From: Eudorina sp. 2006-703-Eu-15
Lineage: Eukaryota; Chlorophyta; Chlorophyceae; Chlamydomonadales; Volvocaceae
Direction: 5' to 3'
NCBI GenBank assembly: GCA_003117195.1
Contig: BDSI01000106.1
Location: 326,452-390,451, forward strand
DNA: 64,000 bases
The notes under the pieces are model-generated. The model was not told the origin of the DNA and did not search any database. It was given only the letters and a program-made list of their open reading frames with translations. Shown here in pieces: positions 1,710 to 41,800 of this stretch (position 1 is its first letter; each line of letters starts with the position of its first letter). The position numbers and the translations under genes are program-made.

Positions 1710-3847
1710 TACCGTACACCATTGTCAACCACCAAGACCAAGAGATGGCTCGATTTATTGTATGCTCCCGCGCCCCCCGAGGGAGCTATGAGACCCCACC
1801 CTTCGACAGCAACGGCGCCTTCTTTCAATGACTGTGACCGTGTCCGTGTCGTACTGTGCCGTACATTGGTGCGCCCAGCGGCCGCCGCTGCCCTGCAGCC
1901 GCCCACGCTACCGGACGGCTTCTTGGCTCCGGGGCCACAGGGCGGTGTGCGGGGTGGTGCACCGACCAGCGGGTCGCTTACCGCTTTGAGTATAAAGACT
2001 GACAAGCCATAAGACCAAACTGTGTCGTCGCTTTGGACGTGCATGGGGGTAGCGCCTGGCACGAGTTCTTTCGTGCGCGTCAAGGTGTATGTGTGTCGTG
2101 TGTGTGGGTGTTGCAGTTTACAAGGACGGCCGTGCGAGGGGGTTGACTAGTCGCGTGCCGTAGTGGGGCGTGTGGATGCGAGGGCGCGTGTACGCTTCAT
2201 CGCGGTTGGTGGAGAGGGGGGGCTTTGGCGGACGCGGCGTTGGCGGCGGACGGGGGCCCACCCCTGGACCGGCACGCCACCGCTCGCGCGTGAGCACCGC
2301 GGGGGATGGGGGCAAGGGGGGGGACACATTCAGAAACATTGAACAGCAGCGGGCAGGGCGCTGCTTTCTGCGTCACCACAATGTTAACAAAAGGAAATGA
2401 ACCCACACTCCATGACCGCCTGCCACGCGCACACGTTCTTCGTCCCTCACTCTCTGCCGCCCGATCACTCACACCAGGTAGATGATTGCAGCTCACCATC
2501 GTCGCAGGAACACTGCAGCAGGAACACTGCCCCCATGAGACCAATGCCGAGCGGGGCCCTCGCACGACCCTCCTCCTCCCTAGCTGATCCACCAGCCAGC
2601 ACCGCGCCCCGCCATCCTGCAATTGCTAATCGGTATATTATGTGTAAACGATAACTGAGCCGCGAGAAGCGGAGTCCAGCGTATTGTGTGTGTGTGTGGC
2701 ACATGGTTGGGTTGCATAACCCCATACCTGTACGGCTACCCATACGAGCCGTAGGCCCAAGGAACGTCTACACACACGTGCATAACGCTGCACAAGCAGG
2801 GAACAAGAGACTGCTGCCGCATAAGGGGAACGATTGAGTTGCGATGGGCCCACATGAGTTTCAAGAGCCTTGCTAACCGAGGCCGGGTCCCAGGCCATGG
2901 CGACCAGCATGCTAGTATGGCAGTAAATCGGTGTACAGGATATAGCCCCTATCAAGCGTAGCATAACTCTATTAACATTGCGCTCCGAACCCCAGCATCC
3001 AGTGAGCGCGTCCTCCGGCACTCCCGCCGCCGCTACAACATGTCCAGCTGCGCTGCCCGACACTCCAGGACTCCGGGTCCCGTATCTGAACGCTCCAAGA
3101 CGGACCGATCCACTCCGTTACATCCGCCCGGGCACAGAAAGTTGTTGGGTCGCAATCCTGCTGCCGCAAATTCCGATGCAACCAAACAACCCAACGAGAG
3201 GGTTGCTGCCTTCCCCCGGGCGTAATGCAGGTGACCTAACGACAAATGTGCCCCTCCGCCACACTCACCCGCCTCGTGTCTTGCGTAACTGTCCTGGCAG
3301 CGCCGCCATCACCACACCACCGCCAACAAATCAGCACAAAGGACGAAAGTACGGCATAAGTATGAGCAACACCAACGACGGCGGGAATAGGCCCACCCCC
3401 TGCATCTCTACGAGCAAACGAAATATCTTGCAACGCTGCAAGGCGTATCAAGGACAAACCATATCCTCCCAACACGCATTCCAGCGCCGCGGCCATTTCC
3501 ATTCACCTTGCATTGCCTCATGGTGCGAACCCTAAGAAATAACACGGCGACTCATCGATCGCTTGACATCCGCGCACCGTGCGTTGCTTGACGCCCGACG
3601 GCTCCTGCTGCGGCCCCAGCTGTTCCAGTTCGCTCGGCCCCGCCCCGATTCTGGACGCCCTCCCTCGCAGCGGGCAGTGTCGAAACGCGGGCGCTCAAAA
3701 TTCGCTACTTCAGGTTACATGGTGGGCGCTTTGCTCTGAAACGCCTCTGACCAGACCGAGGTGGAAGAAGATTGATGGCAGATTAGTGTCCACGGTGGAG
3801 TGGCGGGCGACTGCATGTATGCTCGGACGGCAGTGGGTTTCGCAGAT
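1710..3847. other. Downstream flank of HDAC copy 1, no gene seen
   Basis: This flank has a duplicated counterpart at 8353-10616. It contains short GT-rich runs and no convincing exon on either strand. The HDAC poly(A) signal TGTAA lies on the minus strand at 3719-3715, about 130 bases after the stop codon. The remainder is probably intergenic. Confidence 0.6.
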
Positions 3848-6533: not shown

Positions 6534-7157
6534 TTTTCTTGCAAGCGGGCTGGTACTCCGCGGCCTTTGTAAAGTCTCGAAGGGCCGCGATGGGCTAAGC
6601 ACCAACCGCAGAGTCAGACGAGACCTGCTGGACGCATTCCATAAATACATTTCATGGTACCCTGTTGATAATTGCGTCTCAACTTCCTTGTTTGCAAAGA
6701 GCGGTTGAGTGGATCCACTACGACACAACTGCTACGAGAAAACTGCGTTTCGAAGTGCACTGCACACGAGCCACGAACAGTTTCATGTTAGATGTCACCT
6801 TTTGCCTACCTCATGACTATATATAGTACGTTTCAACAGCGACAGACTGCACATAACGGCGAAGCCTGCCTCGGTTTTGCGTTGGCCATGGTTACTTAAC
6901 CAAGCCGTTCGCCCCGCGCCAGTGGTCTGTTGCACGTTTGGTCACACTTGTCAGACAGGTCGTTGCGCTTGCAGCCGTCGGTAAACGCCCGACTGACGCC
7001 GGCGCCGTCGCTCCCCGCGCCCTCGGCCACCTCCCCTTATCGTGCCGCAAATCTCGAAATCTCAACCCGGAGAACATCACCTCGCTTTCCACATGCTGCA
7101 TTTGCGTCCCCGGTCCGCTACGCTTGTTGGAAACACGACAAACACATTATGCGCGGG
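6534..7157. other. HDAC copy 1 promoter joined to duplicated FAP184 downstream flank
   Basis: The first part is the HDAC 5' flank. From about 6785 the sequence matches 17452-17850, which lies downstream of the intact FAP184 gene. At about 7157 it jumps directly into FAP184 exon 10, deleting the counterpart of about 17850-18300, including the FAP184 stop codon. No independent gene is visible. Confidence 0.65.
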
Positions 7158-10616: not shown

Positions 10617-13186
10617 TCACAGCAGAGGCTCCGCCGCCGTTGGCTCCGCCGCCGTTGGCTCCGCCGCCGTTGGCTCCGCCGCCGTTGGCTCCGCCGCTGT
10701 CGGCTCCGCCGCCGTCGGCTCCGTCGCCGTTGGCTCCGCCGCCGTTGGCTCCGCCGCCGTTGGCTCCGCCGCCGTTGGCTGCGCCGCCGTTGGCTCCGCC
10801 GCCGTTGGCTCCGCCGCCGTTGGCTCCGCCGCCGTTGGCTCCGCCGCCGTTGGCTCCGCCGCCGTTGGCTCCGCCACCGTTGGCTCCGCCACCGTTGACT
10901 CCACCGCCGTTGGCTCCGCCGCCGTTGGCTCCGCCGCTGGAGCCGCCGCTGCGGCCGGCTTCAGCTGCCGCGGCGGCGTCTGCGGCTCGAAGCAGGCGTC
11001 CATCGCCGCGTCAATGACGGCCTTGTGCTGCCGAGCCGCCTCCCAGTGCTTGCTCTGCTCATACAGCGCGGACCGAATGGAGGCGAGCGCGTTGTCGGAG
11101 ACGCCATCGAGCCCCGCCGCGACCCAGGGGTCTGCGCTCGGTGCCGCCGTCGCCGCCATCTGCAGGCCGCTTTCCGCCAGCGGCATGGGCGCCTCGCCCA
11201 GCAGCACCCTCAGGCAGGCCTCCGTGGCGGCGGCAGTAGCGATCAGGTTGTAGCCGCCCTCCAGCAGCAGCACGGTGGGGCCCAGCGCGCACAGCATGGC
11301 GGCAAAGTGGGAGAACGCGGCGGTGCTGACGGAGCATTCGCCCAGCGGGTCGCCCTCCGCGGCATCGAAGCCGGCGCTTACGATGACCAGGTCGGGTCGG
11401 AACTCGGCGGCAATGGGCACGATCACGTGGCGGAAGGCCGCCAGCATGTCGGCGTCGCCGACGCCGGAGCCGTTCCACGGCACGTTGACGGTGAAACCCG
11501 TGCCCGGGCCGGTGCCGGTCTGGAGACAGGCGGGGGAGGCAAGGGGTTGGGGTCGGCATGCTGAGCACGGGTTGGGGTGGGAGTTTGCATCGGGGACGTT
11601 GACTGGGCCGGGGGCCGACAGCAGGTCGATGAGCGCTGGCGGGTTAACTAACACCCTGATAAACAAGTCTAACATCCGCTCACTTCGTTCGCGCCGCCGC
11701 TGCCCGGGTAGAAGCAGCCGTTGTCGTACCGGTGCGTCGACATGTACAACACCGTGGGGTCGTTGTAGAAGATCCGCTGCGTGCCGTTGCCGTGGTGTAC
11801 GTCCCAGTCCATGATCACCACTCGCCGCGCGCCCGCCGACTGGGCCGCGCGCGCCGCCACCGCCGCGTTGTTGTAGTAGCAGAAACCCATCGCCGTCGAA
11901 GATTCGGCGTGGTGACCCGGGGGTCGGATGATGGCGGCGCCGTGGCGCGTGACGCCGCTCACCACTCGCCGCGCGACCTCAGCGGCGCTGCCGGCGGCCA
12001 CGAGCGCGGCCGCGGCTGTAGCTGCGTTGAAGTACACGTCCTGAATGTGCTCACTGAAGACCGGAAGCAAGGGCAAGTATAATGGGGCAAGGTCGTGTCT
12101 CTGGGACAATATTCAACTTGCCATGGATGATACGTTGGTATGATTGGGAAACTGTTGTAGCCCTCACGCACTCATCGCTGGCCATCCGAGGTCGGCGGCC
12201 GGTGGGTTCGTCTATCTCCGTTTGCTTGACAACAACGATACCGTCTGTCCGTAACACACAAGCGCCGAAGAGCGTGCAATACCTGCGTCTGCCCCTCATC
12301 GCCTCCAGCTGTGCATCCAGGGGGCCGTACCAGGTCGTCTTGTCGCGTTGCGCGGCCAACACCGCCACCTCTGTCGCCTTTTCGATGGCAGCCAGCAGGG
12401 CCTTGTCGTGCACAGCCAGCAGCTCCTCCTTCGTGGCCTCTCGCCCTTTGTAGCGTTGGCAGCTGTGCGGCGCAGCACGTGATTGCACAGCACATCGGAC
12501 CTTGAGGTGGAAACAGTGTCGGCCGGTACGATGCGGGTGTCTAAGAGCTGCTGTCGGTACGGTGTCGGCTAAGCGAACAGAGGGCAGAATGCAACAGGCG
12601 CGATGTGTTCGCATGGGATCCGCCGTTGTGATTGCAGTGTGTCGCCCCCATCTCGTTACGGTTGGGGCAGCAGGAACGGCAGTCGCGTTCGGCCTGCACA
12701 CGGCACAAAGCCACAAACCCAAATGCATATCTTCTACCTGAAGTCTTACCGACCAAGCAGCCCCGACTCCTGCAGCTTCGCCATGATTGCCGCGACGCGT
12801 TCAGGGCGCTCGGGATGGTTTCTCCCCAGGTATACCCCCAACTGCTTCGGGTCATAGTGGCGCCTGCAGTGGTCATCATAGGCGAGAAGGACGCTCGTGG
12901 CACCGGCCTTCTTCTCTATCGCTGAGCAGTCCGGCTTCTCCATCAGTTCCATGGCAGCTGCGTACAGGTCCTGGTCAACCATCTCCTGACGCAACTGCCA
13001 GCCGCAGTTGGTGCACTTGGTTGTGTCCAGGTAAGGTGTTTGGTTGCAGTTGATGCATTCCCGAGGTGTTTGTTCCGAAGCCACGGGCTCCGCAGCTTTC
13101 GCGACCGGGATAGTCTCGCGTTGTTGAGGTTTGGAAGCCTCTTCCCTGAAGCCGAATACCCTTGAAACAAACGGCTTTGTGCTCAT
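10617..13186 (-). CDS. Class II histone deacetylase, HDA15-like, copy 2
   Basis: Paralogue of the gene at 3848-6533 with the same four-exon structure: 13186-12750, 12462-12283, 12053-11684 and 11519-10617, giving 629 residues. The RanBP2-like zinc finger, [30 protein letters not shown] and LEGGYN motifs are present. One Gly after DPLG is Glu here (GEC instead of GGC), and DANE near the exon 3 end is GANE. The main difference is the C-terminus, where about 20 AEPTA-type pentapeptides replace the short Pro/Ala tail of copy 1. Exon 1 is 15 bases shorter. Poly(A) signal TGTAA is on the minus strand at 10485-10481. Motif conservation suggests it is still functional. Confidence 0.87.
10630..10945. 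repeat. Coding 15-bp minisatellite in the HDAC copy 2 tail
   Basis: A 15-base unit (GCCGTTGGCTCCGCC on the plus strand) repeats about 20 times with few substitutions. Read on the minus strand it gives AEPTA pentapeptides. Because the unit is a multiple of three, length changes keep the frame. The paralogue has no such array. The complementary strand is also open over the array, but that is a by-product of the repeat. Confidence 0.92.
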
Positions 13187-26887: not shown

Positions 26888-28679
26888 TCATTTGCAGACC
26901 TTGCACGCACGCGGGCAGTTCTCGGTCATGTAACCAGGATTCTTCTCGCACTCGCCAAAGAACGCCCACTCCGTGCACTGCTCGTTGTTGTCGTGGCAGT
27001 CCGGCGTCCCCAGGTCCAACTTCTTCTTTCCACTGCGCGCGTTGTTCAGGAAGCGAGGACGGAGAAGGACGGACCAGCGAATCAAACCGTCAGCTGTCGA
27101 AAAAACAATGCCGCGGCTGCGCTGTTCACTGCCTTCCTCTGCGCAGGATCAAAAGAGTGTTGAGCGGCAAAAGCGCGGTAGTAAAGGCGAGTGGCCCCAG
27201 GCTTATCGCAGCGCTGGGACAGGGGGGCGAATTCTCGCAACGGGGGTCGGCCGCTGTGCCACTATTTCAGAATGGCTATGTGAGGCTGACAAGAAGGCAA
27301 CCCACTGTCTGCAACGGGGGTTACTACTCCCATTACTGTACAGCCAGCCTTGCCCAACCAGCCGTGCCCGGCCATCCCAATCTGACGCCTGCTTCAAGTC
27401 AAGGCAATGTCGAGACTGCCCTTGGGACTCCCTAACTCACCCAATCGGGCCCACGTGGATCCACTTTGTGGCGCTCCACTTGTCGCCCTTCAGCGTTGGG
27501 CAGCTGCCATGTAGACTGGCGGGGTCGTTGCTGCCATCCGGCTTCAGTGAGTAGAACATGAGCGCGTCGCCGCGGACGGGCTTCACGGCCAGACCGCGCT
27601 TCGCGCACTCAGACCAACCCTCACCGCTGACCTTCTGGTCGGCGTGGGGCAGCACGGTCTCACCGCCCTCCTCGACGGTCGTCCTGAAACACGAGAGAAA
27701 CGAGACGTGGCCCATGGGCGATGTCGAACTCAGCACTGAGCGCAGCCATGAGCTGGCCCGACAAGCAATGGGCTGGAGACGCACTACACGTTTTGATCGC
27801 ATTGCCGCCGTGCAGTTGGTTTCATTGCTGGTGACATGAACGCCTCGTCATACGCACCAGACACACATCAACCGCCCCATACACACGCACACCCCGCTAT
27901 TACGCCGCACGTCGGCGCCCACGCTAACCCCATGGCAGGCAATGAAATGCGCAATGATTCATGGGGTACGCTTCCAAGGGGTACTCACAGGTACATCAGG
28001 ACGGTGACAACGCGCTGGCCGCCGTGCTCTGGAGAGGCGTTCACGGGGTCATGGAAGTAGTCATAGTGCGGCTCGTATTTTTGGCCATCATGGTAGTGCA
28101 GCACCTGAAGCCCCTCGTGGTTTTCCAGCGGAATCATCGTCACTTGCGCGACACGCTTCTCAATTCGAGAGATTACGCTGTCCTCGCCCTTCGCAAACCA
28201 CATTCCAGTGCTGGTGCGGATTTCGCTGTCAACACTCTTTCCAGACTTGTTATCGACGACAGAAGACTTGACCATACGGGGCTTTGCCTGTGGCAAGCAA
28301 CAGTCATTCGGCGTTCGGTACTGTGCAGCTTCCCAACAGTTGAGTGCCGAAAGACCCCTTCTAACGCAACCTACACGCACCTTTTCAATAATGTGGTCAC
28401 ATTCCTCGTCCGTGAGGAACCCCTTGAGCAAGAACGCACGAGGAGACCAGGACAGGTGAACCACCTCACCACGCCATTCCTCCTGTCGAACATAAACAAT
28501 TTGTTGCGTTGATATGCGCACAGTACTGCAGGCAAACAAGAGCTGAGTCGCACCTTGAGCTCGCCGAAGCCTACAGTGTGCCCTGATCCAGTTACCACGC
28601 TGCCTGTGGAAGCTGCCTGGAGTGCAGAAGCTAAAGACAGTATAACAGCTACCATAAGCACGCCCATTTGGAACGCCAT
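26888..28679 (-). CDS. Secreted prolyl 4-hydroxylase with C-terminal ShKT domain
   Basis: Fe(II)/2-oxoglutarate-dependent enzyme that hydroxylates prolines, most likely on cell-wall or secreted glycoproteins passing through the ER/Golgi. Exons (minus): 28679-28554, 28482-28381, 28287-27989, 27683-27441 and 27032-26888, giving 304 residues. An N-terminal signal peptide (MAFQMGVLMVAVILSLASA) is visible. The catalytic domain shows KPRMVKSSVVD, the metal-binding HYD in YEPHYDYFHD, the VEEGGET strand, the distal histidine in SLHGSCP and the 2-oxoglutarate lysine in KWSATKWIH. The last exon encodes a six-cysteine ShKT module ending ACKVCK, common in plant and algal P4Hs. All splice phases agree. 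Confidence 0.9.
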
Positions 28680-29169
28680 GGTTACTTTCGTCAACGCGAA
28701 CAGAGTTATGGGACAACAACGCTGCAGTCTATCATAAATGTATGTTTGATTCAATTTATATGGAATCGCATTGGACAATCGGCACCCCTACCCGTTTCAC
28801 ATCGGTTGCCCCAACGATTAAGTACGGGTACTACGAAACCTCCGTTTCCCCCAAGCCTGGTCCCATACCGCCTCTTTGAGCGAATCAGCACACGGCAGTG
28901 TAGGCATCAAACCAGTTGCCACGATAGTTGGCACGATCTTGTGACCGTGCCACGATCTGCTAGATATCATGGCATCTGATGGATGCGGAGGCAGAATGCG
29001 GTATACCGTATACGGCCCCAAAGGTTCGGGGAGTGCTGGGTTGCGCGTTCGCTGCAGATTACCATCGGAGAGGATAAATTCCGCTCAGGGCGAGTTGGCG
29101 AACTACCACCACGGGCAAGAATGTCTCCCGCGTCCGGCGGTGCCCCGTAGTCTTGGACGGCGACGGGGC
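28680..29169. other. Unassigned region between the prolyl hydroxylase and the repeat array
   Basis: Contains the prolyl hydroxylase promoter side and about 200 bp that are present next to array copy 1 but not next to copy 3. The sharp change at about 29,170 marks the left end of copy 1. No gene was recognised. Confidence 0.5.
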
Positions 29170-29722
29170 CTCGCAAGCCACCATCAGGGGTATGCCTCCC
29201 AACAAGGTCCCTGCCTTCGCGTTATCGTCCCGTCCCCCCGCAGCCCCTTTTGAGGCCACTGGTATTCGGCTAGTTATTCTGCCCTGGTTGCAGAGGACCA
29301 CGGCACACCAGACAGGTATCATGTTCCTTCAAGATGGGTTGGGTGGATCCCACCCCTGGCCATCCCTTGCTCGGTATGACTAGCTCCGCTAATCCGTAGA
29401 GCCGGCTCCAAACATCCGCCACCGCGCGCCGGGCGACCATCCTTTCTGCAACTTTGATTGCCGATCTCACCCTTCGAAGCCCGTCAAGCAAAGCCCTCAC
29501 ATGCCGTGTGGAATCTGAAATCTGCCTGGTCGCGCGCGTTCGAGGTTGGCCTTCAGCAAATGTATCGTCCGTGAACCACTGGCATCTCCTTTTCACGATC
29601 GTACGCTGTCAGGGTTGATCTACAAGAGTACCCGGATTCCTGATCGCGTTTTGCTTCATCACAGACAATCACGACCGCATTATTAAGCTGGCACTCACCC
29701 CATCCTTAAGTGTTATTATCAT
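29170..29722 (-). pseudogene. Rep-like gene 5' fragment, copy 1
   Basis: Counterparts of Rep exon 1 (29722-29699) and exon 2 (29605-29501) are intact, with the GTGAGT and GTGAGG donors. The sequence then leaves the element within intron 2 at about 29,170, so the helicase exon is missing. The only length difference from copy 3 in this part, four bases near 29,490, falls inside the proposed intron, which supports the exon model. Confidence 0.55.
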
Positions 29723-30823
29723 CCTTGCGTCGGTGGTGTCGAGGTTTATGCATGGATGAACGTTAAAGCGGACCCCAAGAGGGATCAACGGTGTGCACCA
29801 GGGCAAGCCCCAGCAGGCCCCACCGACATGGCGGCAAGACACCTCCACACCTCAACGCCGCGATAAAAAAACCCATCGGGCCATGCCCGCACCCAGACAG
29901 ACGCCAAAAGCAAGCAGATGCGCACAGCGGGGCAACAGTACCAAAGGGTTATGTCGGTTGCAGAGAGCGTCCGTGCCGTTCCTTACTGTCCTTACCTTGC
30001 TTACCTGCATGCGTCTCAATCAAGAGAGTTAATACTGCCGACCCCACAAAGGAGTTATCGGTGCCTGGCAGGAGAGCACGAGTCCCCTGATGGTGGCGGG
30101 AACTGGCGGGAAAGGGCGGGGCGGCAAAAGCGTTTGCCTGTGGCGGTTCAGTGCGGTTCACAAACATCCACAACGTGATCGCTCGTAAGTCAACGCAAGG
30201 CGCCGTGTCCCGACGCCCGAATCCCCGCTTTCCTGCTGTGTTCTCGACATTGCCTTATATCCCAGCCGGAACGATGGGCTGGCTGGGACCGTTCAGACAG
30301 CTGACACTAGCCGCTGCTGCGCGTGGACGTTGCAGTTCACATGCCATGATGCCAAGGTCTTCTGCGACGGGATGCTCGGGCTCAATGCCCAATATTCGCT
30401 GCCTGATGATAAGTTCGGGCACCTTTCACACCTGCATTCGGAGCCTGCTATGCCTGTGCGCCGAGCGAATGGCACGTTGGCACCCAGTTGGGAGGATTAG
30501 CCCTTGCGCGGCTGCCAGCGCCTTCCTCCTGGCAATCCTCGCATACATTGAGGCGACAACACGCCAGCAAAACACTGCCCAATTGGGTCATAAGATGAAC
30601 GGGGCCCCAGAGCCATGCAGCCTGGGTATCCTGGGATATATTTTCCTACGTTATGACATGACCTGCGGTGTTGCGCACCGATGCCATGCTATCAGGACGC
30701 CCACCTCAACTAAGCATGCTGCTTGGGGGCCGTGCTGCTGCGCACAAGGCCACCCCCTGCCACCCGCGGTTTGTGGACCTCGGCCCCTAGGCGCAAGAAG
30801 GCCCTACGTCAGCTAAAGGCAAC

Positions 30824-31261
30824 CTAAACAAGCAACTTGTCAACTATCAGATGCCTTGCAGCCCATACGGCGTCAGCCATGGCAAAGACTTTGCAGTTGG
30901 GGGCTTGACCCTCTCCCCGCGGTGGGAGTGTGGAGCTACCGTATACCCCGAAGCTCCCTACGTCCTCGCAGTCGTAACCGCTGTGCGCGCCGATTTTTAC
31001 AGCTATATGTGAAGGTGTGGTGCCAAAATGCATCTCGTACTTTCCAGCATAGTTTGCGAGGTCAGGCAGGGTTCCGCTCAGCCTTAGTCCCCCCTTAGTT
31101 CCGCTCCCTTGAGTGGCCTTTGATCTGAGGTGCAGGCGACAACCAACGTGCACTGACAGACAGTGTCTTCTACAAAAGACGAAGATGCAGCCATTTCTGC
31201 AGCACGTTACTGTGGCCTGTCGTGCAAGTCCACGATCGTCATGAGGAGATTGGTGTGGCAC
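30824..31261 (-). CDS. Hypothetical repeated ORF, array copy 1
   Basis: An open minus-strand frame of up to 145 codons, probably entered by splicing at the CACCTCAG acceptor near 31,125 because no ATG stands at its head; the first ATG inside the conserved part precedes HFGTTPSHIAVK. It ends HLIVDKLLV-stop. No known domain was recognised. Copies at 33499-33936, 36948-37385 and 37833-38165 differ by few residues. It could be a small protein of the element or non-coding sequence open by chance. Confidence 0.35.
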   Translation of the reverse strand: MPHQSPHDDRGLARQATVTCCRNGCIFVFCRRHCLSVHVGCRLHLRSKATQGSGTKGGLRLSGTLPDLANYAGKYEMHFGTTPSHIAVKIGAHSGYDCEDVGSFGVYGSSTLPPRGEGQAPNCKVFAMADAVWAARHLIVDKLLV

Positions 31262-31284
31262 CTGCCCTTCTAAGAAGCATCTTC

Positions 31285-31301
31285 AATTTTTGACAAAAAT
31301 T
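31285..31301. other. Perfect 8-bp hairpin repeated in every array unit
   Basis: AATTTTTG-A-CAAAAATT, two 8-base arms around one base, about 50 bases from the end of the unit. The same palindrome occurs at the matching place in the other copies (near 33,960, 37,410 and 38,298). It may be a terminator-like or nicking-site structure. It could also lie within the short frame ending KIEDAS-stop. Confidence 0.6.
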
Positions 31302-31353
31302 CACCGAACTTTGCAGAGGTTGCGATCAATTTGTCGGTTATGATTGATTGATT

Positions 31354-32192
31354 GGAGAACGATTGCAGGGCATTCGTTGACGCAGATAAGATTATAAATA
31401 TGTATAGATTGCTACATTGTATGTACGTGTGCACCAAGATCGATGAAAACTGTTGAGGCCACAAAGTCGGCGTCGACCCACCTTCGGGTTGGGCACATCA
31501 GCTGGAAGGCGATGATCCTGTTGCCACAGCCACTGTGATATCACTCGCTCCTGTATTTATCAAGATTGGATGCAATTAGGCCGAGCGGGCTTGCCTGGAG
31601 GTACAGACTTAGTACATACATGGAGGAGCCCGTCTTAGCCCGTGAAGTTGTCGATCGACACTTGGATTGTAAGCTCCCGGCGCAATCTTTGCGATCTTGT
31701 AATAATTCAATTTTATAATGAAAATAATACAGAATGAAAACATGACGGCCCATGTTCTCGCTTCCACACGACTCGCTCCGCACGTCCCCGTACTACCCAG
31801 GACTTCATCACTGCTGTTACTGACAGTAGCTCTGTTACCTTGAGGCTAGTCAGCAATGATTGTTGTACGACGAGACAGCTGTACGCCCTGCTTCCCTTCA
31901 TCGCGCCTCGCTGCCCCGCCCGCCTTCACCCATCTCGCCGCTCCTCCACCGGCCCGCCCAGCCCCACCCCGCCCCCGATCACCTCCCAAGCGGTGTCTTC
32001 TGTGTCCTCCCGCCCCTGCCCCAATCCCCGCAGTTCCATCGCTATCCCAAAGCCCCGCACCGGCGCCTGCGTCACCTCAACTCCTTGTCCGGCTGCACTC
32101 GCACCGACCCGCACTGGCACCCGCACCGCCCAGCCGCATGCTCCGCCGACCCCCGGCGGCCGTCGACCCGGCCCCGTAGTACCAGCCCATAT
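31354..32192. other. Spacer between array copies 1 and 2
   Basis: 839 bp not found next to the other copies. The left half is AT-rich. The right half (about 31,900-32,190) is a C-rich stretch with overlapping open frames on both strands but no recognisable protein. It occupies the place where copy 3 has the Rep helicase exon. Confidence 0.5.
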
Positions 32193-34029
32193 AAATCTGC
32201 CTGGTCGCGCGCGTTCGAGGTTGGCCTTCAGCAAATGTATCGTCCGTGAACCACTGGCATCTCCTTTTCACGATCGTACGCTGTCAGGGTTGATCTACAA
32301 GAGTACCCGGATTCCTGATCGCGTTTTGCTTCATCACAGACAATCACGACCGCATTATTAAGCTGGCACTCACCCCATCCTTAAGTGTTATTATCATCCT
32401 TGCGTCGGTGGTGTCGAGGTTTATGCATGGATGAACGTTAAAGCGGACCCCAAGAGGGATCAACGGTGTGCACCAGGGCAAGCCCCAGCAGGCCCCACCG
32501 ACATGGCGGCAAGACACCTCCACACCTCAACGCCGCGATAAAAAAACCCATCGGGCCATGCCCGCACCCAGACAGACGCCAAAAGCAAGCAGATGCGCAC
32601 AGCGGGGCAACAGTACCAAAGGGTTATGTCGGTTGCAGAGAGCGTCCGTGCCGTTCCTTACTGTCCTTACCTTGCTTACCTGCATGCGTCTCAATCAAGA
32701 GAGTTAATACTGCCGACCCCACAAAGGAGTTATCGGTGCCTGGCAGGAGAGCACGAGTCCCCTGATGGTGGCGGGAACTGGCGGGAAAGGGCGGGGCGGC
32801 AAAAGCGTTTGCCTGTGGCGGTTCAGTGCGGTTCACAAACATCCACAACGTGATCGCTCGTAAGTCAACGCAAGGCGCCGTGTCCCGACGCCCGAATCCC
32901 CGCTTTCCTGCTGTGTTCTCGACATTGCCTTATATCCCAGCCGGAACGATGGGCTGGCTGGGACCGTTCAGACAGCTGACACTAGCCGCTGCTGCGCGTG
33001 GACGTTGCAGTTCACATGCCATGATGCCAAGGTCTTCTGCGACGGGATGCTCGGGCTCAATGCCCAATATTCGCTGCCTGATGATAAGTTCGGGCACCTT
33101 TCACACCTGCATTCGGAGCCTGCTATGCCTGTGCGCCGAGCGAATGGCACGTTGGCACCCAGTTGGGAGGATTAGCCCTTGCGCGGCTGCCAGCGCCTTC
33201 CTCCTGGCAATCCTCGCATACATTGAGGCGACAACACGCCAGCAAAACACTGCCCAATTGGGTCATAAGATGAACGGGGCCCCAGAGCCATGCAGCCTGG
33301 GTATCCTGGGATATATTTTCCTACGTTACGACATGACCTGCGGTGTTGCGCACCGATGCCATGCTATCAGGACGCCCACCTCAACTAAGCATGCTGCTTG
33401 GGGGCCGTGCTGCTGCGCACAAGGCCACCCCCTGCCACCCGCGGTTTGTGGACCTCGGCCCCTAGGCGCAAGAAGGCCCTACGTCAGCTAAAGGCAACCT
33501 AAACAAGCAACTTGTCAACTATCAGATGCCTTGCAGCCCATACGGCGTCAGCCATGGCAAAGACTTTGCAGTTGGGGGCTTGACCCTCTCCCCGCGGTGG
33601 GAGTGTGGAGCTACCGTATATCCCGAAGCTCCCTACGTCCTCGCAGTCGTAACCGCTGTGCGCGCCGATTTTTACAGCTATATGTGAAGGTGTGGTGCCA
33701 AAATGCATCTCGTACTTTCCAGCATAGTTTGCGAGGTCAGGCAGGGTTCCGCTCAGCCTTAGTCCCCCCTTAGTTCCGCTCCCTTGAGTGGCCTTTGATC
33801 TGAGGTGCAGGCGACAACCAACGTGCACTGACAGACAGTGTCTTCTACAAAAGACGAAGATGCAGCCATTTCTGCAGCACGTTACTGTGGCCTGTCGTGC
33901 AAGTCCACGATCGTCATGAGGAGATTGGTGTGGCACCTGCCCTTCTAAGAAGCATCTTCAATTTTTGACAAAAATTCACCGAACTTTGCAGAGGTTGCGA
34001 TCAATTTGTCGGTTATGATTGATTGATTA
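32193..34029 (-). repeat. Array unit, copy 2
   Basis: A near-perfect copy of the 1.84-kb unit; only scattered substitutions against copy 1 were noticed. Its left end at 32,193 falls inside Rep exon 2, so Rep exon 1 (32397-32374) is whole and exon 2 is cut. Its right end at the ATTG microsatellite is followed directly by the intergenic part of the complete element (34,030 onward). Confidence 0.9.
33499..33936 (-). CDS. Hypothetical repeated ORF, array copy 2
   Basis: Same 145-codon frame as at 30824-31261, with Val to Ile in the FGVYGSS segment (FGIYGSS). The frame has no ATG at its head and probably starts at a splice acceptor. The family is unknown. Confidence 0.35.
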   Translation of the reverse strand: MPHQSPHDDRGLARQATVTCCRNGCIFVFCRRHCLSVHVGCRLHLRSKATQGSGTKGGLRLSGTLPDLANYAGKYEMHFGTTPSHIAVKIGAHSGYDCEDVGSFGIYGSSTLPPRGEGQAPNCKVFAMADAVWAARHLIVDKLLV

Positions 34030-34390
34030 GAGGATTTAGGAAACCATAAAGATAAAAGTTATATCTTTTATGTTTGCGGTGATATTTTTGGAAACCTCAA
34101 AGTTACGGGCCCTAACTTTGCTGAATCCAGGCTTAACCTCGCGGCAAGCACCTGCTCGTTCCGCAAAGAAACGAGCCTGCCGTACGTCGCAAAGATAAAT
34201 TTGTCACGTAATCATGCAACACATACTATGAAATGATAGGCAGAAATGCGCTGCATGGGATGCTCTAGCCGTATGACGTTTGGCGGCCTCACCAACAGTC
34301 ACAGAGAAGCCCACCCGCTCTACTCAGCCCAACCAAAGAGACCAATTTAGGTGGTGTTGATAAACACCGGTTTAAATTTGCTTTGTATAA
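34030..34390. other. Intergenic part of the Rep-bearing element with a strong hairpin
   Basis: 360 bp between array copy 2 and the Rep stop codon, AT-richer than its surroundings. It contains CAAAGTTA-CGGGCCC-TAACTTTG at 34098-34120, a perfect 8-bp stem with a 7-base loop. No coding sequence is visible. In rolling-circle replicons an intergenic hairpin of this sort often marks the origin, but the canonical nonanucleotide is absent from the loop. Confidence 0.5.
34098..34120. promoter_or_regulatory. Perfect stem-loop, candidate replication origin
   Basis: CAAAGTTA (34098-34105) and TAACTTTG (34113-34120) pair fully around a CGGGCCC loop. It lies 270 bases beyond the Rep stop codon, in the only non-repeated intergenic part of the full element. 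Assigning it as the origin rests on position and shape only. Confidence 0.4.
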
Positions 34391-35842
34391 TCACATGGCC
34401 TGAAGGTCAACCAGGTCCAGTCGGTCCGCCGTCCAGATGCCAGGCTTGGGTCCCACGTTGGAGAAGAAGATGACATGCGGCGGGTCAAAGACCTTCAGAC
34501 GTGCCTCGTACTTGCCGCATTCCACTCTGCCGTTCTTGAGCTTCTCGGCAAAGACGCACATCTCATCGATGTCCACCATGCTAGCACCGCGCGGCAGGTC
34601 GATAACCACAATGCGTTCCCGGTTGTATGTGTAAGCACAGTCGCGCTGGTTGCCCATAAGCTGAGCAGCTCCGTAGTTGCGCAGTAGGTGCAAGCCAAGA
34701 CGGCTCTTGCCGCTGTTGCCAACCACATCCTTCACCCAGATAATGGTGCGGTCATCTGTGGGAAGCAGCTGCCCCGCCGGGCCCACCAGCCTATCCAGCA
34801 CCGCTTGCTGCCAGGGACGCGGCACAAAGCCAAGCTCAGGAGGCAGGCAGGCGGTGATAGCTGCTTCGTAGGCGTGGAGACCATGATGAAAGCGGATGTA
34901 GGTCTCTGGCATGTCCGTAGCTACCCTCTTGATGCCGTGATTTCTCACAAGAAGGGCTGCATGGGTCAGGTCGTTGCGCTGCCCCTGAGCAGATTCCCAT
35001 TCACCCACCTCCCAGGGGCCGCCAGCACGCCTTGCTTGCGAGGAGACCCGCTCTTTTGCCGCGTCTCTGCTTGTGTTCTCATCTTTTTGCTCCCAGGCGG
35101 CAGGCGCCTTCAGCCATTTTTGGCATGCGCTCAGGCGCACGGACTTGGTGAATTCTACATAGCCGTTAAACTCAAATTCGCCCTCCGCAATAGAGTCAAG
35201 CTGGAATATACAACAACGCACATAATCAGGCGCACTGCCGGTTATCTGGGCGTGCGTGACAGGGGTGTGTGGGACGAGTTTCAAATGAAAGAACTCGCAA
35301 GCCACCATCAGGGGTATGCCTCCCAACAAGGTCCCTGCCTTCGCGTTATCGTCCCGTCCCCCCGCAGCCCCTTTTGAGGCCACTGGTATTCGGCTAGTTA
35401 TTCTGCCCTGGTTGCAGAGGACCACGGCACACCAGACAGGTATCATGTTCCTTCAAGATGGGTTGGGTGGATCCCACCCCTGGCCATCCCTTGCTCGGTA
35501 TGACTAGCTCCGCTAATCCGTAGAGCCGGCTCCAAACATCCGCCACCGCGCGCCGGGCGACCATCCTTTCTGCAACTTTGATTGCCGATCTCACCCTTCG
35601 AAGCCCGTCAAAGCCCTCACATGCCGTGTGGAATCTGAAATCTGCCTGGTCGCGCGCGTTCGAGGTTGGCCTTCAGCAAATGTATCGTCCGTGAACCACT
35701 GGCATCTCCTTTTCACGATCGTACGCTGTCAGGGTTGATCTACAAGAGTACCCGGATTCCTGATCGCGTTTTGCTTCATCACAGACAATCACGACCGCAT
35801 TATTAAGCTGGCACTCACCCCATCCTTAAGTGTTATTATCAT
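34391..35842 (-). CDS. CRESS-DNA Rep-like protein (HUH domain remnant plus superfamily 3 helicase)
   Basis: Best model (minus): exons 35842-35819, 35725-35621 and 35245-34391, 327 residues, the usual Rep size; all phases are 0 and donors are GTGAGT and GTGAGG. The C-terminal half is a superfamily 3 helicase: Walker A GNSGKS, Walker B ERIVVIDLPR, motif C PPHVIFFSN and a later ADR arginine. The N-terminal half has a Rep-like fold signature (NGYVEFTKSVRLSACQKWL, GPWEVGEW, GQRNDL). However, the HUH position reads EFN instead of His-x-Gln/His, and the tyrosine-Cys motif III is replaced by Arg-Val, so nicking activity is doubtful. CQWFT may be motif I. An alternative unspliced start is ATG 35446 (351 codons). 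Known relatives are in circular ssDNA viruses, algal plasmids and their integrated copies. The 5' exons are inferred. Confidence 0.65.
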
Positions 35843-36213
35843 CCTTGCGTCGGTGGTGTCGAGGTTTATGCATGGATGAACGTTAAAGCGGACCCCAAGA
35901 GGGATCAACGGTGTGCACCAGGGCAAGCCCCAGCAGGCCCCACCGACATGGCGGCAAGACACCTCCACACCTCAACGCCGCGATAAAAAAACCCATCGGG
36001 CCATGCCCGCACCCAGACAGACGCCAAAAGCAAGCAGATGCGCACAGCGGGGCAACAGTACCAAAGGGTTATGTCGGTTGCAGAGAGCGTCCGTGCCGTT
36101 CCTTACTGTCCTTACCTTGCTTACCTGCATGCGTCTCAATCAAGAGAGTTAATACTGCCGACCCCACAAAGGAGTTATCGGTGCCTGGCAGGAGAGCACG
36201 AGTCCCCTGATGG

Positions 36214-36241
36214 TGGCGGGAACTGGCGGGAAAGGGCGGGG
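36214..36241 (-). promoter_or_regulatory. Paired E2F-like motifs upstream of Rep exon 1
   Basis: On the minus strand TTTCCCGCC and TTCCCGCC stand five bases apart next to a CCCCGCCC box, about 370-400 bases before the proposed Rep ATG. Paired TTTCCCGC-type sites are typical of S-phase promoters bound by E2F/DP. The same cluster occurs at 30094-30121 and 32770-32797 in the other copies. Confidence 0.4.
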
Positions 36242-36947
36242 CGGCAAAAGCGTTTGCCTGTGGCGGTTCAGTGCGGTTCACAAACATCCACAACGTGATC
36301 GCTCGTAAGTCAACGCAAGGCGCCGTGTCCCGACGCCCGAATCCCCGCTTTCCTGCTGTGTTCTCGACATTGCCTTATATCCCAGCCGGAACGATGGGCT
36401 GGCTGGGACCGTTCAGACAGCTGACACTAGCCGCTGCTGCGCGTGGACGTTGCAGTTCACATGCCATGATGCCAAGGTCTTCTGCGACGGGATGCTCGGG
36501 CTCAATGCCCAATATTCGCTGCCTGATGATAAGTTCGGGCACCTTTCACACCTGCATTCGGAGCCTGCTATGCCTGTGCGCCGAGCGAATGGCACGTTGG
36601 CACCCAGTTGGGAGGATTAGCCCTTGCGCGGCTGCCAGCGCCTTCCTCCTGGCAATCCTCGCATACATTGAGGCGACAACACGCCAGCAAAACACTGCCC
36701 AATTGGGTCATAAGATGAACGGGGCCCCAGAGCCATGCAGCCTGGGTATCCTGGGATATATTTTCCTACGTTACGACATGACCTGCGGTGTTGCGCACCG
36801 ATGCCATGCTATCAGGACGCCCACCTCAACTAAGCATGCTGCTTGGGGGCCGTGCTGCTGCGCACAAGGCCACCCCCTGCCACCTACCCGCGGTTTGTGG
36901 ACCTCGGCCCCTAGGCGCAAGAAGGCCCTACGTCAGCTAAAGGCAAC

Positions 36948-37385
36948 CTAAACAAGCAACTTGTCAACTATCAGATGCCTTGCAGCCCATACGGCGTCAG
37001 CCATGGCAAAGACTTTGCAGTTGGGGGCTTGACCCTCTCCCCGCGGTGGGAGTGTGGAGCTACCGTATACCCCGAAGCTCCCTACGTCCTCGCAGTCGTA
37101 ACCGCTGTGCGCGCCGATTTTTACAGCTATATGTGAAGGTGTGGTGCCAAAATGCATCTCGTACTTTCCAGCATAGTTTGCGAGGTCAGGCAGGGTTCCG
37201 CTCAGCCTTAGTCCCCCCTTAGTTCCGCTCCCTTGAGTGGCCTTTGATCTGAGGTGCAGGCGACAACCAACGTGCACTGACAGACAGTGTCTTCTACAAA
37301 AGACGAAGATGCAGCCATTTCTGCAGCACGTTACTGTGGCCTGTCGTGCAAGTCCACGATCGTCATGAGGAGATTGGTGTGGCAC
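36948..37385 (-). CDS. Hypothetical repeated ORF, array copy 3
   Basis: Third copy of the 145-codon frame ending HLIVDKLLV, identical at protein level to copy 1 as far as compared. Just upstream (37518-37393) a 42-codon ATG-initiated frame beginning MATDTGVRRE ends in KIEDAS-stop. Its last 25 or so codons are also open in copies 1 and 2 behind different upstream sequence. Confidence 0.35.
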   Translation of the reverse strand: MPHQSPHDDRGLARQATVTCCRNGCIFVFCRRHCLSVHVGCRLHLRSKATQGSGTKGGLRLSGTLPDLANYAGKYEMHFGTTPSHIAVKIGAHSGYDCEDVGSFGVYGSSTLPPRGEGQAPNCKVFAMADAVWAARHLIVDKLLV

Positions 37386-37479
37386 CTGCCCTTCTAAGAA
37401 GCATCTTCAATTTTTGACAAAAATTCACCGAACTTTGCAGAGGTTGCGATCAATTTGTCGGTTATGATTGATTGATTGT

Positions 37480-37817
37480 CAAAATAATTTCGCGACGTAC
37501 GCCCGTATCCGTCGCCATGCCCTTCAGCCTTTACTTGGCCCTTGCAGGACTTCCCTATGTTATAGCGCAATTACAGCAAAATTAGTCGTGTTACTACGGG
37601 GGTCGCTTGATGTGTTTGTGAAAGCACTGAGACTGAGAAGTCTGGTTTGTTGTTTGAGTGATGGCTTGCTGATGCGCTCATAAGTTACAAAGACGAACAC
37701 TTGTCTGGGGTCGCCTGATGGCGGTGCCCAACGTGCCAGGGAGGAGCCCTTACTCGTCAATGTCCGGCTCCGTCTGGTTACCTTGTAAGTACATCCCTGT
37801 CACAAATTGCATGGGTT
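37480..37817 (-). repeat. Array flank repeat, copy a
   Basis: Repeated at 38360-38708. On the minus strand an acceptor-like TTGTGACAG is followed by an open basic frame (TYKVTRRSRTLTSKG, then FVFVTYERISKPSLKQQ) ending NFAVIAL-stop at about 37,560. The second copy differs by a 15-base in-frame insertion and a few replacements. Arg/Lys-rich N-termini occur in small-virus capsid proteins, but the match is too weak to assign that role. Confidence 0.55.
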
Positions 37818-38359
37818 TCAGCTAAAGGCAACCTAAACAAGCAACTTGTCAGCTATCAGATGCCTTGCAGCCCATACGGCGTCAGCCATGGCAAAGACTT
37901 TGCAGTTGGGGGCTTGACCCTCTCCCCGCGGTGGGAGTGTGGAGCTACCGTATATCCCGAAGCTCCCTACGTCCTCGCAGTCGTAACCGCTGTGCGCGCC
38001 GATTTTTACAGCTATATGTGAAGGTGTGGTGCCAAAATGCATCTCGTACTTTCCAACATAGTTTGCGAGGTCAGGCAGGGTTCCGCTCAGCCTTAGTCTC
38101 AGGGTCAACCCTGCAGGAAGTTGAGTGGCCTTTGACCTGAGGTGCAGGCGACAACCAACTTGCACTGACAGACAGTGTCTTCTAAAAAAGACGAAGATAC
38201 AGCCATTTCTGCAGCACGTTACTGTGGCCTGTCGTGCAAGTCCACGCTAGTCATGAGGAGATTGGTGTGGCACCTGCCCTTCTAAGAAGCATCTTCAATT
38301 TTTGACAAAAATTCACCGAACTTTGCAGAGGTTGCGATCAATTTGTCAGTTATGATTGA
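37818..38359 (-). repeat. Array unit, copy 4 (partial, most diverged)
   Basis: Covers only the right-hand 540 bp of the unit: the repeated reading frame, the hairpin and the end, with one ATTG instead of three. With the preceding flank repeat it forms a second tandem period of 879 bp (37,491 to 38,370). Confidence 0.85.
37833..38165 (-). CDS. Hypothetical repeated ORF, array copy 4
   Basis: The most diverged copy of the repeated frame. The first conserved part reads TQLPAGLTLRLRLSG instead of TQGSGTKGGLRLSG, and Ala to Val and Val to Ala changes occur, yet the frame stays open to the same stop. Persistence of the frame despite local replacement is mild evidence for coding. Confidence 0.35.
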   Translation of the reverse strand: MQVGCRLHLRSKATQLPAGLTLRLRLSGTLPDLANYVGKYEMHFGTTPSHIAVKIGAHSGYDCEDVGSFGIYGSSTLPPRGEGQAPNCKVFAMADAVWAARHLIADKLLV

Positions 38360-38708
38360 CAAAAAATTTCGCGACGTACGCCCGTACCCGTCGCCATGCC
38401 CTTCAGCCTTTACTTGGCCCTTGCAGGACTTCCCTATGTTATAGCGCAATTACAGCAAAATTAGTCGTGTTACTACGGGGGCCGCTTGATGTGTTTACGA
38501 AAGCTGCAGTCTGAAACTGACTGAGACTGAGAAGTCTGGTTTGTTGTTTGAGTGATGGCTTGCTGATGCGCTCATAAATTACAAAGACGAACGCTTGTCT
38601 GGGGTCGCCTGACGGCGGTGCCCAACGTGCCAGGGAGGAGCCCTTACTCGTCAATGTCCGGCTCCGTCTGGTTACCTTGTAAGTACATCCCTGTCACAAA
38701 TTGCATGG
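38360..38708 (-). repeat. Array flank repeat, copy b
   Basis: Second copy of 37480-37817, 15 bases longer in the reading frame. Ends at about 38,708, where unique sequence leading to the Q-rich protein gene begins. Confidence 0.7.
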
Positions 38709-38885
38709 GCCACAACGTCTCTGTAATATTTGGTTGGCGAGGCTGCACATTACTGGCTCACAGTCAGTTGGCTTGTAGCACCCTCGGCGTGCCTGTTGTC
38801 TTGCATTCTAGCTCGGAAACGTTGGGTGGTAACCGGTGAGGACACAATACGTTGATTTGCATGATGACATGTTGATGTACGTGAG

Positions 38886-41800
38886 ATGCCGATTCCCTTG
38901 TGCTTTGTCTATGCTATCACAGCTGAGGGTGGCATCGCCAAGAGCCTCTCCAAGCCGCACCAAGAATCGCTCAACCTGTATGTCCATCCTGAACCGTCAC
39001 CCGAGCTGGAGGAGAGATTACTGCGGGACTCCCAGCTACAGTGCAGAGCGACCGACGGTACTGCGCATTGCCTCGATTCCCAGCCGAGCGGAAGCCTGGA
39101 ATCCCGGAAGGATTTACAATTTGATGCACAGCCTTATTTGGCCAGTTCTCCGTCGGCTGCGCAGCGAGACTCGCGAGTCATCCCTCTGTCAACTGTCGGT
39201 CGCACCTCAGAGTCCTTCGAAGGTCAGCACACTTCGCTGATTGGATGTTTGGACTCACATTCATTACACGCGGGCAATGGGCTATCCGCACCGGATTCTG
39301 AGATCGTGTTGAGCGACTGCAACAGAAGTTCTCGGCAGCGCGTTTCGTCGGACCCCGCGGCCGAGACCGCGCTTGCTGCCGCGCAGCCAACAAACATCTT
39401 TGAGCAACAACAACAAAGTCATTCTATTCACTCACAGCAGCAGCCCGTCTATAACCAACAGTCGACCGTGTCCGACCGCGCGTGGCGAGCGCAGCAGCCC
39501 TGTCTGGACGCCGTGGACGGCACGGCCACGATTCCCGGCTCCATTGAGCCCATGCAAACTGACTACGGCGGCGGCTGCAAGAGCCCGCCCACATGCCCGG
39601 GCCGTGAAATGCACGCCGGCGGTCAGCTCATGTCGGTCCACAGCCTCAGCCTCTCCGGCCCAGATCGCGACTTACTGGACCAGCTCCTCGGCTCGGAGCC
39701 TGGCAACGCCAGCCCACCTCATATCACCCCCTCCTCCTTTCTCAACACGGGTCCCTTCGCGGACGCAACCCTACAGCCCACCCTGTCTGACTACAGTCAG
39801 CGCCCAACGCCGGCCCAGATGACCGATCCCCCCGACGCGGAGGCTGACAGCGCCGCCCGGCAGCAAACGAAGCTCGGGAGCGCCGGTCGCAGCAGCCACC
39901 CGCCACCGCCACCGCTCATTACTGCCTACAGTGAGCCTCTGCCGTTCAGCGCACCGGTCCCCCACCATCTGTCTCTGCACCCGCCGTACCCGGGCGCGCC
40001 GCCGGCGGCCTCGAGAACCTCGGCTGTTGGGCCCGGCGGCGGCGGTGGCAATGCGGCGGCGGAGTTTCCCTGCGGCCAAGACCACCAGCAGCGGCCGCAA
40101 CAGCAGCTGTCCTCGTTGCCGCATCAGCACCAGCGACAACAGCGCGGCCATGACGATTCTTCTTCAACCGGCGCTGGCAGGGATGCCAGCACGCAACACT
40201 GGGCAAGGGTTGGCGCTGCGGGGGACGGCCTGCCGGGGTTGACGCAACCGGACGCGACGGTAGCGGCGGCCGCGGCACAGCAACAAACGCACGAGCAACA
40301 GAGGCGACAGATTCAGGAGCAGTTTCAGGAGCACCATTCTCAGCAGCAACAGCAGCAACAACAACAACAGTATGAGGAGCAGCAGGCCATGTTCCAGCCG
40401 CGGCCTCGCTCTGCAACGCACTTTGGTGCGCCTTGCGGCCCATCCCGCGCGCTCGGCGCGCCGTTCGATGAGTCGACGACTGGTCTTCTGCCCCCGGCAC
40501 ACTCGGCGCCCGTGCTGGGGCGATTGTTCACCAATGCGGGGGACGCGTCGTCTCCACGAGGTGCACCCTCGCCGATGCACGTCGACGCACCCTCGAGCCG
40601 TTCCCAGGGCTTCCCAAATGTGTCGGCCGGCGGGGCCGCCGCCGCCGCCCCTCCCGGCGCGGCGGCACCACCATCTGGATCTTCGGCGGCGATGGCGGCG
40701 GCCGCAGTGGCCGGCAGCGCCGGCGGCTCCTACTCAGTGCCCATGCATTCCAGCCCGTCTGATTCTCGTGGCAAGCGGCTGCGGCATCAAGATGCCGCCG
40801 ACGCGCGGCCCAGCTCCGCGGGAGGGCAGCTGGGCGGCGGCGCACCTCACCCGCATCCCAGCGGCCCGCCCGCACCGCAGGGCGGTGGTGCGCCTTCCGC
40901 CAGCGGAGGCGGCCCGGCGGTTGGGCGGGCCAGCAGCCCCAGCAGCCGCAGCCAGAGCGCAGGTGACCCGATGAGCGTCAGCTGCATGGACGGCGCGGCG
41001 ATGTACGGTCAGGCGGCGGGCTACCCGTACTCTTACGGCGTGCCACCGCCGTACCCGATGCCTTACGGGATGCCCCCGTACGGCGACCCTTACTACTACC
41101 CGGGCTACGGATACCACCCCATGATGGAAGCGCCCCCGCCAGGCGCACCTGGCGGCCCGGATGGTTACGGCCCGCCCCACGGGTCAGTCAATGCGCCGAT
41201 GCACTACCCCGGGTTCATGGCGCCAAGACAGCGCCTGTATCGCCGCTTCGTCAGCGGGCAGCACGCCCGCCGTGATGGGTCGGGCCAGGTACCCGAGCCA
41301 CCTGCGGGGCCGCCGGGTCAGGATGGGACTGCGCCCGCAGGGGCCTCGGGCCCGCCCGGGGGCCCGGGCTCAGGCCCGTTTGCAACGGGCATGCGGCCCT
41401 CTGCGACTGGACCCCCGGCCATGCGGCAGGCCCAGACCCACCAGGCAACTGGAGTGGCCAGGCCGGCAGGCGCCAGCTGCGGCGGCGGCGGGGCGGCGAC
41501 CGCCATGGACTTGCAGAGCGCGGGGGGCTCTGCGGATCAGGCGTCTGGGGGCGCTGAATCGCAGCAAAGTGCACCGATGGCCGTTGGCGCCGGTGCTGGT
41601 GCTCAGGGCGCTGCGATGGTCGGCGGCCGTGGGGCGCCGGCCGGGGAATCGTATGTGGCCAGCGACGACATGGAGAGCGCCCTGGTGAGTGACGGGCCGG
41701 GGGAACAGGATGTAGGTAGCCTTGTCGGAGCTGCGCTGGCCGGGCCGGGGGGAGGCGCTCTCAAGAAGAGTGCAATGGAGGAGACATCGGGCGGCGCATG

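Follow-up and report, generated by a model that had tools for sequence, protein, structure and literature searches.

This locus raises the question of how a gene for a Rep protein, the hallmark enzyme of CRESS viruses, whose nicking activity is central to their replication, came to lie in the nuclear genome of a green alga, and of what such a protein could do there. In the window, by which we mean the whole 64,000-nucleotide stretch of Eudorina sp. 2006-703-Eu-15 DNA analysed here, the minus strand reads as a CRESS DNA virus Rep from position 35293 down to 34391, in a frame of 300 codons plus stop without an internal stop. The explanation we favour, and regard as probable, is that a small inverted-repeat DNA element of the algal nuclear genome would have captured the Rep gene of an unclassified lineage of CRESS DNA viruses, that the captured gene would have lost its HUH/Tyr nicking activity and kept its SF3 helicase, and that the helicase would have been held by selection until the element had reached four or more places. 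None of the copies found in this assembly is still intact, the one in the window having lost its first nine codons together with the 5' end.

The earlier note on this DNA, made from its letters alone, had recognised an SF3 helicase of the CRESS-Rep type in 34391-35293 of the minus strand, and this identification holds: GNSGKS, VVIDLPR and VIFFSN are all present in a frame with no internal stop, and the match to CRESS Reps is beyond chance. A protein search with the window frame returned 50 homologues at E ≤ 0.01, the top one (E 1.3e-70) being 49% identical across 79% of the query; the longest contig measures 1.0-4.85 kb for 49 of the 50, and 32.7 kb for the other (P0045). Homology to CRESS Reps spans the nuclease, the linker and the helicase, as seen in the sequence search and in the full-length tree. 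The sole Pfam match was a sub-threshold one to Viral_Rep (E 0.0099), and a sequence search of the PDB gave a weak match to the Rep nuclease domain 6h8o (E 4e-4); PHROGs gave no relative of the window protein, and a scan of IMG/VR with A1, P0051, P0053 and P0001 gave no confirmed relative. An AlphaFold model built from 53 sequences (mean pLDDT 92, pTM 0.67) has Reps as its nearest viral models, the best match being a Cressdnaviricota Rep (E 1.6e-25), and its N-terminal part was matched by Foldseek to 6h8o, the nuclease domain of FBNYV M-Rep, with a TM score of 0.77 by target. The remaining PDB matches of the model were loose (TM by query 0.22-0.37) and included SF3 helicases, among them papillomavirus E1, AAV Rep68 and poxvirus D5/E5, and other AAA+ proteins, among them MCM and RuvB.

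It was also correct that a CRESS-Rep-derived gene resides here in the nuclear genome of a photosynthetic eukaryote. At least 68 matches to the light-harvesting family PF00504 were listed, many of them as adjoining pieces, as introns would give, and the window also has histone deacetylase, reverse transcriptase and ankyrin ORFs. The copies of the gene that we found lie on chromosome-type contigs, as against the small circular genome of a CRESS virus.

What had been proposed upstream of the helicase did not stand. Two mini-exons (35819-35842 and 35621-35725) had been joined to the helicase exon to give a spliced protein of 327 residues, and GT-AG dinucleotides do occur at both introns, the phase fits and the joined exons make 327 codons plus stop; exon 2 has WFT, faintly like the WCFT of viral motif I. 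However, both exons lie beyond the end of a repeated element at 35293/35294, in a flanking unit (35294-37478, 2185 bp, which also includes a high-copy repeat at 35868-36071) that is 99.6% identical to a local copy without the helicase part at 29170-31354, and that is partly present once more at 32193-34028, again without Rep helicase. Elsewhere than on the window contig, a DNA search of the genome found this unit represented by the 35868-36071 repeat and small bits only. Moreover, other copies of the gene give the N-terminus in frame and free of introns: the four on contigs C46, C139, C701 and C91 read MSSNRARCW-FFHLK... from an ATG in the window frame, and in C46 and C139, which keep the gene start in one open frame, it begins MSSNRARCWFFHLK..., aligning with viral N-termini, for example MAQGKYWCFTLNNP. 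The beginning is identical in C701 and C91, which are frameshifted after it. The window keeps the frame from FFHLK onward and, because it has lost the nine codons upstream, the supposed exons are unrelated flank. Chance often allows GT-AG dinucleotides at proposed joins of this kind, and we find a three-exon host gene encoding a 327-residue spliced Rep hardly credible. The longer stop-to-stop open frame listed for the minus strand at 34391-35452 (353 codons) was also rejected as a gene, its first ~50 codons being flank.

A eukaryotic transposon, the other guess of the earlier note, proved apt, since the Rep frame sits in an inverted-repeat element with copies elsewhere in the genome; that first reading had overlooked the element, its copies and the loss of nuclease motifs. 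Comparison of the DNA of the window, C46, C139, C701 and C91 revealed a common block with sharp edges at 34028 and 35294, and past 35294 the other four copies go on with a sequence of their own, which the window copy does not. The repeated element that bears the Rep frame measures about 1.85 kb and has 18-bp terminal inverted repeats, the 18-mer TAGAGGATTTAGGAAACC standing at one end and its inverse at the other in C46, C139 and C701, with 0-1 mismatches to the pattern. In the window a remnant persists at 34028-35293, with the Rep sense on the minus strand; its left end is the 3' terminal inverted repeat (34028-34045, TAGAGGATTTAGGAAACC on the window plus strand), and its 5' side is lost at 35293/35294. 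TA is found on both sides in C46 and in relatives on C278 and C15, although it is inseparable from the repeat, and C139 has AA/TT at one end; the copies examined showed no target-site duplication beyond this possible TA. No second ORF of transposase size was found in the element, the longest other stop-to-stop frames being 121 aa (5' part, C139) and 68 aa (3' part, window), which suggests that a transposase acting on the ends of the element probably moved it in trans. On C6 the first 350 bp of the element occur at two places, the match going no further, and no Rep match was among those listed there; the element ends therefore seem able to move without the Rep gene.

Inverted-end pairs differing at two bases enclose 7.9 kb on C278 and 9.2 kb on C15 (59502-68663), and may mark longer relatives of the Rep element. 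The one on C278 (19007-26935, with L069 as its first 3.5 kb) is a candidate 7.9-kb element with ends TAGAGTCTTTAGGAAACC, whose frames include a weak, sub-threshold match to the P-loop family AAA_25. A palindrome of ~135 bp (88% between arms), much longer than the usual CRESS origin hairpin, lies upstream of the Rep start in C139 (L024 5764-5898), is also present in C701 and C46, and is found as a half in C91. The NANTATTAC nonamer was absent from the 1287-bp part of the C46 element that was searched, which contains only TATATTAC.

The earlier note had described a protein of normal Rep length. Its helicase is complete, but all three nuclease motifs are replaced: FFHLK stands for WCFT in motif I, E-F-N (35165-35173, minus strand) for the H-x-Q that most relatives have in motif II, and R-V-S-S (35039-35050, minus strand) for the Y-x-x-K that most have in motif III. 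EFN recurs in every other copy that is still in frame there (C46, C139 and C91), and RVSS in C46 and C139, the frames of C91 and C701 being shifted before motif III. The former HUH nuclease domain (about residues 1-105; 34979-35293, minus strand) keeps its fold in the model with the catalytic residues absent, and from its residues we infer that the window protein would be inactive as a nuclease. The window keeps, on the same strand, Walker A (34703-34720), Walker B (34589-34609), SF3 motif C (34457-34474) and the arginine (34421-34423) of a DR pair that is invariant in the alignment (columns D343 and R344), which we take to be the arginine finger. Of the columns invariant among 29 relatives (12 close ones, with P0010 left out, and 17 further ones), it retains 38 of the 41 that fall in the helicase but 2 of the 9 that fall in the nuclease (Fisher p 4e-5), and 6 of 7 between the domains. 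Compared with the 12 close relatives, the window protein is 57% identical over the helicase and 31% over the nuclease, the corresponding mean identities of these relatives among themselves being 57-79% and 50-60%.

The search for Rep copies covered the assembly of the window's genome (181 Mb, 3033 contigs; the best candidates were scored) and gave matches on the window's own contig (C106), on C46, C139, C701 and C91, and, as a fragment, on C3. C139 and C701 are 98.9% alike over 7084 columns including their flanks, and were therefore counted as one insertion. Each of the five Rep copies that we found is defective today: the window copy is cut at its 5' side, the gene of C46 is split by a 6.67-kb insertion, the copy on C139 (303071-305764, 2694 bp including an 845-bp insertion) has a frameshift and an S-to-N change in Walker A, that on C701 has two frameshifts, and that on C91 is scrambled. 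As no intact complete frame is found among them, any function may be past, and in this strain the line of coding elements may have died out.

Several other candidates were discarded in the course of this comparison. A circular permutation of C91 at the palindrome was rejected, as C91 has a segment inserted and is scrambled; the extra 4 bp in C139 are part of a short tandem repeat and not a transposon footprint; and 8 of the 19 genome matches, confined to residues 1-54 (on C59, C154, C5 twice, C138, C24, C121 and at a second place on C106), are other repeats and not Rep. The fragment on C3 (L011 730-1761) comprises 181 bp of Rep helicase, 100% identical to window 34432-34612, and lies in frame inside a reverse-transcriptase-like ORF (identified by eye), ~30 residues after the YADD motif; it looks like a patch copied during repair.

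Few differences separate the copies, which are thus recent. The window and C91 differ by 10 changes at 171 synonymous sites and by 7 at 564 nonsynonymous sites (pN/pS 0.21, p 0.0015), a signal that comes from one pair of copies and 17 changes; the window differs from C139 by 1 synonymous and 2 nonsynonymous changes, one of the latter in Walker A, and from C46 by 1 synonymous and 0 nonsynonymous changes. Summed over the three distinct insertions, C701 being omitted because it duplicates C139, differences amount to 21/2567 in coding and 29/839 in 3' noncoding DNA (p 4e-7), and third codon positions carry 12 of the 21 coding differences (p 0.02). The pair C46 and C139 differs at 2 of 682 coding against 8 of 553 5' noncoding columns. 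C91 and C139 show no such contrast (18/757 coding, 3/139 5' noncoding columns), and the 3' noncoding stretch may just mutate more readily. Taken together, the gene was probably under constraint after loss of the nuclease, the constraint being placed after that loss because the readable copies share it.

The same observations could be read as those of an ordinary endogenous viral element in neutral decay, its copies hitch-hiking in a transposon and its motif losses due to drift. That all five Rep copies found are defective and that copy number is small would fit such a history, as would the comparison of C91 with C139, which are as different in coding as in 5' noncoding DNA. Nevertheless, decay would strike both domains alike, yet the invariant positions were kept very unequally (38/41 in the helicase, 2/9 in the nuclease), the window frame has stayed open across 300 codons, and pN/pS is 0.21 between the window and C91, both of which have lost motif II; we consider neutral decay unlikely. 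A helicase that served the element, aiding its replication or transposition while a transposase made the cuts in trans, would explain why a conserved helicase sits inside a mobile element, and its ends are similar to the ends of the longer candidates, among which one codes for a further P-loop protein (judging by the weak AAA_25 match). It would explain less well that C6 carries the 5' end twice, with the match stopping after 350 bp and no Rep match listed there, and no transposase was identified; this too is a reading to which we give little weight. Much less probable still is a transposon moved by its own Rep, which would nick and mobilise the element by a rolling circle as in Helitrons or viruses. 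Such a mechanism could be argued from the Rep homology and from the ~135 bp palindrome that C46, C139 and C701 carry close to the 5' end. However, Helitrons encode a HUH Rep with an active Tyr together with a Pif1-like helicase, and to our knowledge they have no terminal inverted repeats; in the element studied here HUH and Tyr are missing wherever the sequence is readable, the helicase is of SF3, inverted repeats are present, and the searched part of the C46 element has no NANTATTAC nonamer.

Under the explanation we favour, capture followed by loss of nicking, the protein would most likely still have oligomerised or formed rings, bound ATP and interacted with DNA, but left it uncut. Its most likely use would then have been interference with related CRESS viruses, as a natural dominant-negative Rep, and this virus-inhibiting role is our first, if tentative, choice; a helper role for the element would come next, and appears to us rather doubtful. 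The fuller version, in which a transposon-borne dominant-negative Rep poisons related CRESS viruses and the same loss took place separately in a second lineage on long DNA, is speculative and in our judgement improbable.

We collected 67 related proteins, three of which (P0031, P0037 and P0061) have no nuclease domain. Among the 64 with the domain, compared in a MAFFT alignment in which some protein rows were possibly entered gapped and then realigned, both motifs are found in 57 (P0050 with H-x-H), and HUH and Tyr are missing in 7 (P0045, P0051, P0052, P0053, P0062, P0066 and P0067). The only relatives whose longest contig exceeds 5 kb, P0045 (32.7 kb), P0051 (30.6 kb), P0053 (27.3 kb) and P0062 (7.3 kb), are all HUH/Tyr-less, and none of the 57 with intact motifs has a contig above 4.85 kb (Fisher p 5.5e-5 for motif loss against contigs >5 kb, in a test chosen after the data were seen). 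The last protein search scored the best 7994 candidates, those sharing most words, and the collection is therefore no full census of relatives. P0066 and P0067, whose N-terminal part is so diverged that alignment there is doubtful, are distantly related Rep-like SF3 proteins (315-324 aa) in which neither HUH nor Tyr can be recognised, and may represent a further nuclease-less group.

In the full-length tree (48 rows) the window is placed beside P0001-P0011, 11 Reps on contigs of 1.1-3.6 kb, with support 98/91 and away from the P0045 clade; its position in the helicase-only tree is without starred support. When the five nuclease-dead rows were held as one clade, the AU test gave p 0.07 for the full-length alignment, whose tree favours two losses but does not firmly reject a single clade, and p 0.75 for the helicase alone, where the held tree was higher by 16.9 log units and two losses are not favoured. 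Overall, two separate losses of the nuclease seem likely. P0045, P0051, P0052, P0053 and P0062 are like the window Rep in that HUH and Tyr are absent and Walker A, Walker B and motif C present, but they are longer (392-466 aa; longest contigs 4-33 kb), and the first four form a clade separate from the window in the full-length tree, from which P0062 was left out.

The alga also carries a second CRESS-type Rep, on C308 (L028, a 37-kb contig), a 249-aa frame with HLQG, YCKK and GAPGVGKS whose two copies (3564-4313 and 5934-6683) lie within a minisatellite-like repeat at a spacing of 2.37 kb. It accounts for the hits to PF00910 and PF02407. Two different CRESS-type Reps thus reached this genome, this one with its HUH and YCKK intact.

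By its way of working, as far as this can be read from sequence, and leaving descent aside, the window Rep fits the type of captured nuclease-dead Rep known from apvRep and U94. The avipoxvirus report derives the captured apvRep-2 and apvRep-5 from CRESSV3/Draupnirviridae and describes HUH as inactivated in all avipoxvirus Reps with a nuclease domain, among which only apvRep-2 keeps Tyr; apvRep-2 and -5 keep the helicase Walker motifs, and purifying selection is reported for avipoxvirus Reps (PMC10193959). The window Rep is like these in being CRESS-derived, with nuclease motifs inactivated and the helicase kept (PMC10193959). It differs in lying in a cellular genome and a transposon, whereas they lie in large dsDNA viruses, and in its unclassified donor lineage, which is named for avipoxviruses; furthermore, as described there, their arginine finger is not fully conserved, and apvRep-5 is a helicase only. 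The same text presents HHV-6 U94 as a captured Rep with inactive nuclease motifs and several helicase functions kept (PMC10193959). U94 is a parvovirus-derived herpesvirus gene, unlike the window Rep, and the nuclease-dead, helicase-kept state is common to both.

In cellular genomes, Rep-like genes of eukaryotes were described in 2011. The green alga Micromonas is listed there with one circular-ssDNA-virus-like gene, and Tuber melanosporum has a geminivirus-like transposon in which a Rep-like gene lies in a repeated element with 37 bp terminal inverted repeats and, as given there, no obvious target-site duplication (PMC3198968). A Rep-type gene inside a repeated inverted-repeat element is thus common to Tuber and the window; the Tuber transposon differs in having transposase ORFs, a geminivirus-like Rep and 42 Rep genes or remnants (PMC3198968). 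In maize, dominant-negative Rep transgenes suppress replication of maize streak virus and confer resistance (PMC4148390), so that there too a mutated Rep blocks a related virus, but it is an engineered geminivirus Rep and not a natural one (PMC4148390).

In the open-access literature, searched by titles and the beginnings of abstracts, and in which Replitron papers are scarce, we found no report of a CRESS Rep with a dead nuclease that is carried by a transposon in a cellular genome. As far as these searches go, a nuclease-dead Rep with a conserved helicase inside such a transposon is new, and so is the second nuclease-dead group on long contigs. This case would extend to cells what avipoxviruses and HHV-6 show, namely that nicking is lost and the helicase kept, and it allows one to test whether inactive Reps have been retained again and again, as decoys or as helicases. 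Through it, an algal genome is connected to a CRESS clade that we otherwise met on public contigs only.

The surroundings of the Rep element in the window are themselves repetitive. Positions 29170-38709 form a local array of a 2.2-kb unit (29170-31354, 32193-34028 and 35294-37478), together with a diverged partial pair (36933-37815 and 37818-38709), and the Rep element is lodged between two copies of the unit. Rfam over window positions 28000-40000 and a tRNA scan were both empty. The ~200-bp repeat at 35868-36071, which is SINE-like and is also found near 29744 and 32423, has at least 37 copies elsewhere in the genome at 87-91% identity, among the 40 best of 2012 candidates that were scored. 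Further away, two ORFs matching the C-terminal part of the histone deacetylase profile, at 3848-4753 and 10617-11978 (minus strand), lie ~6 kb apart and are perhaps a tandem gene pair.
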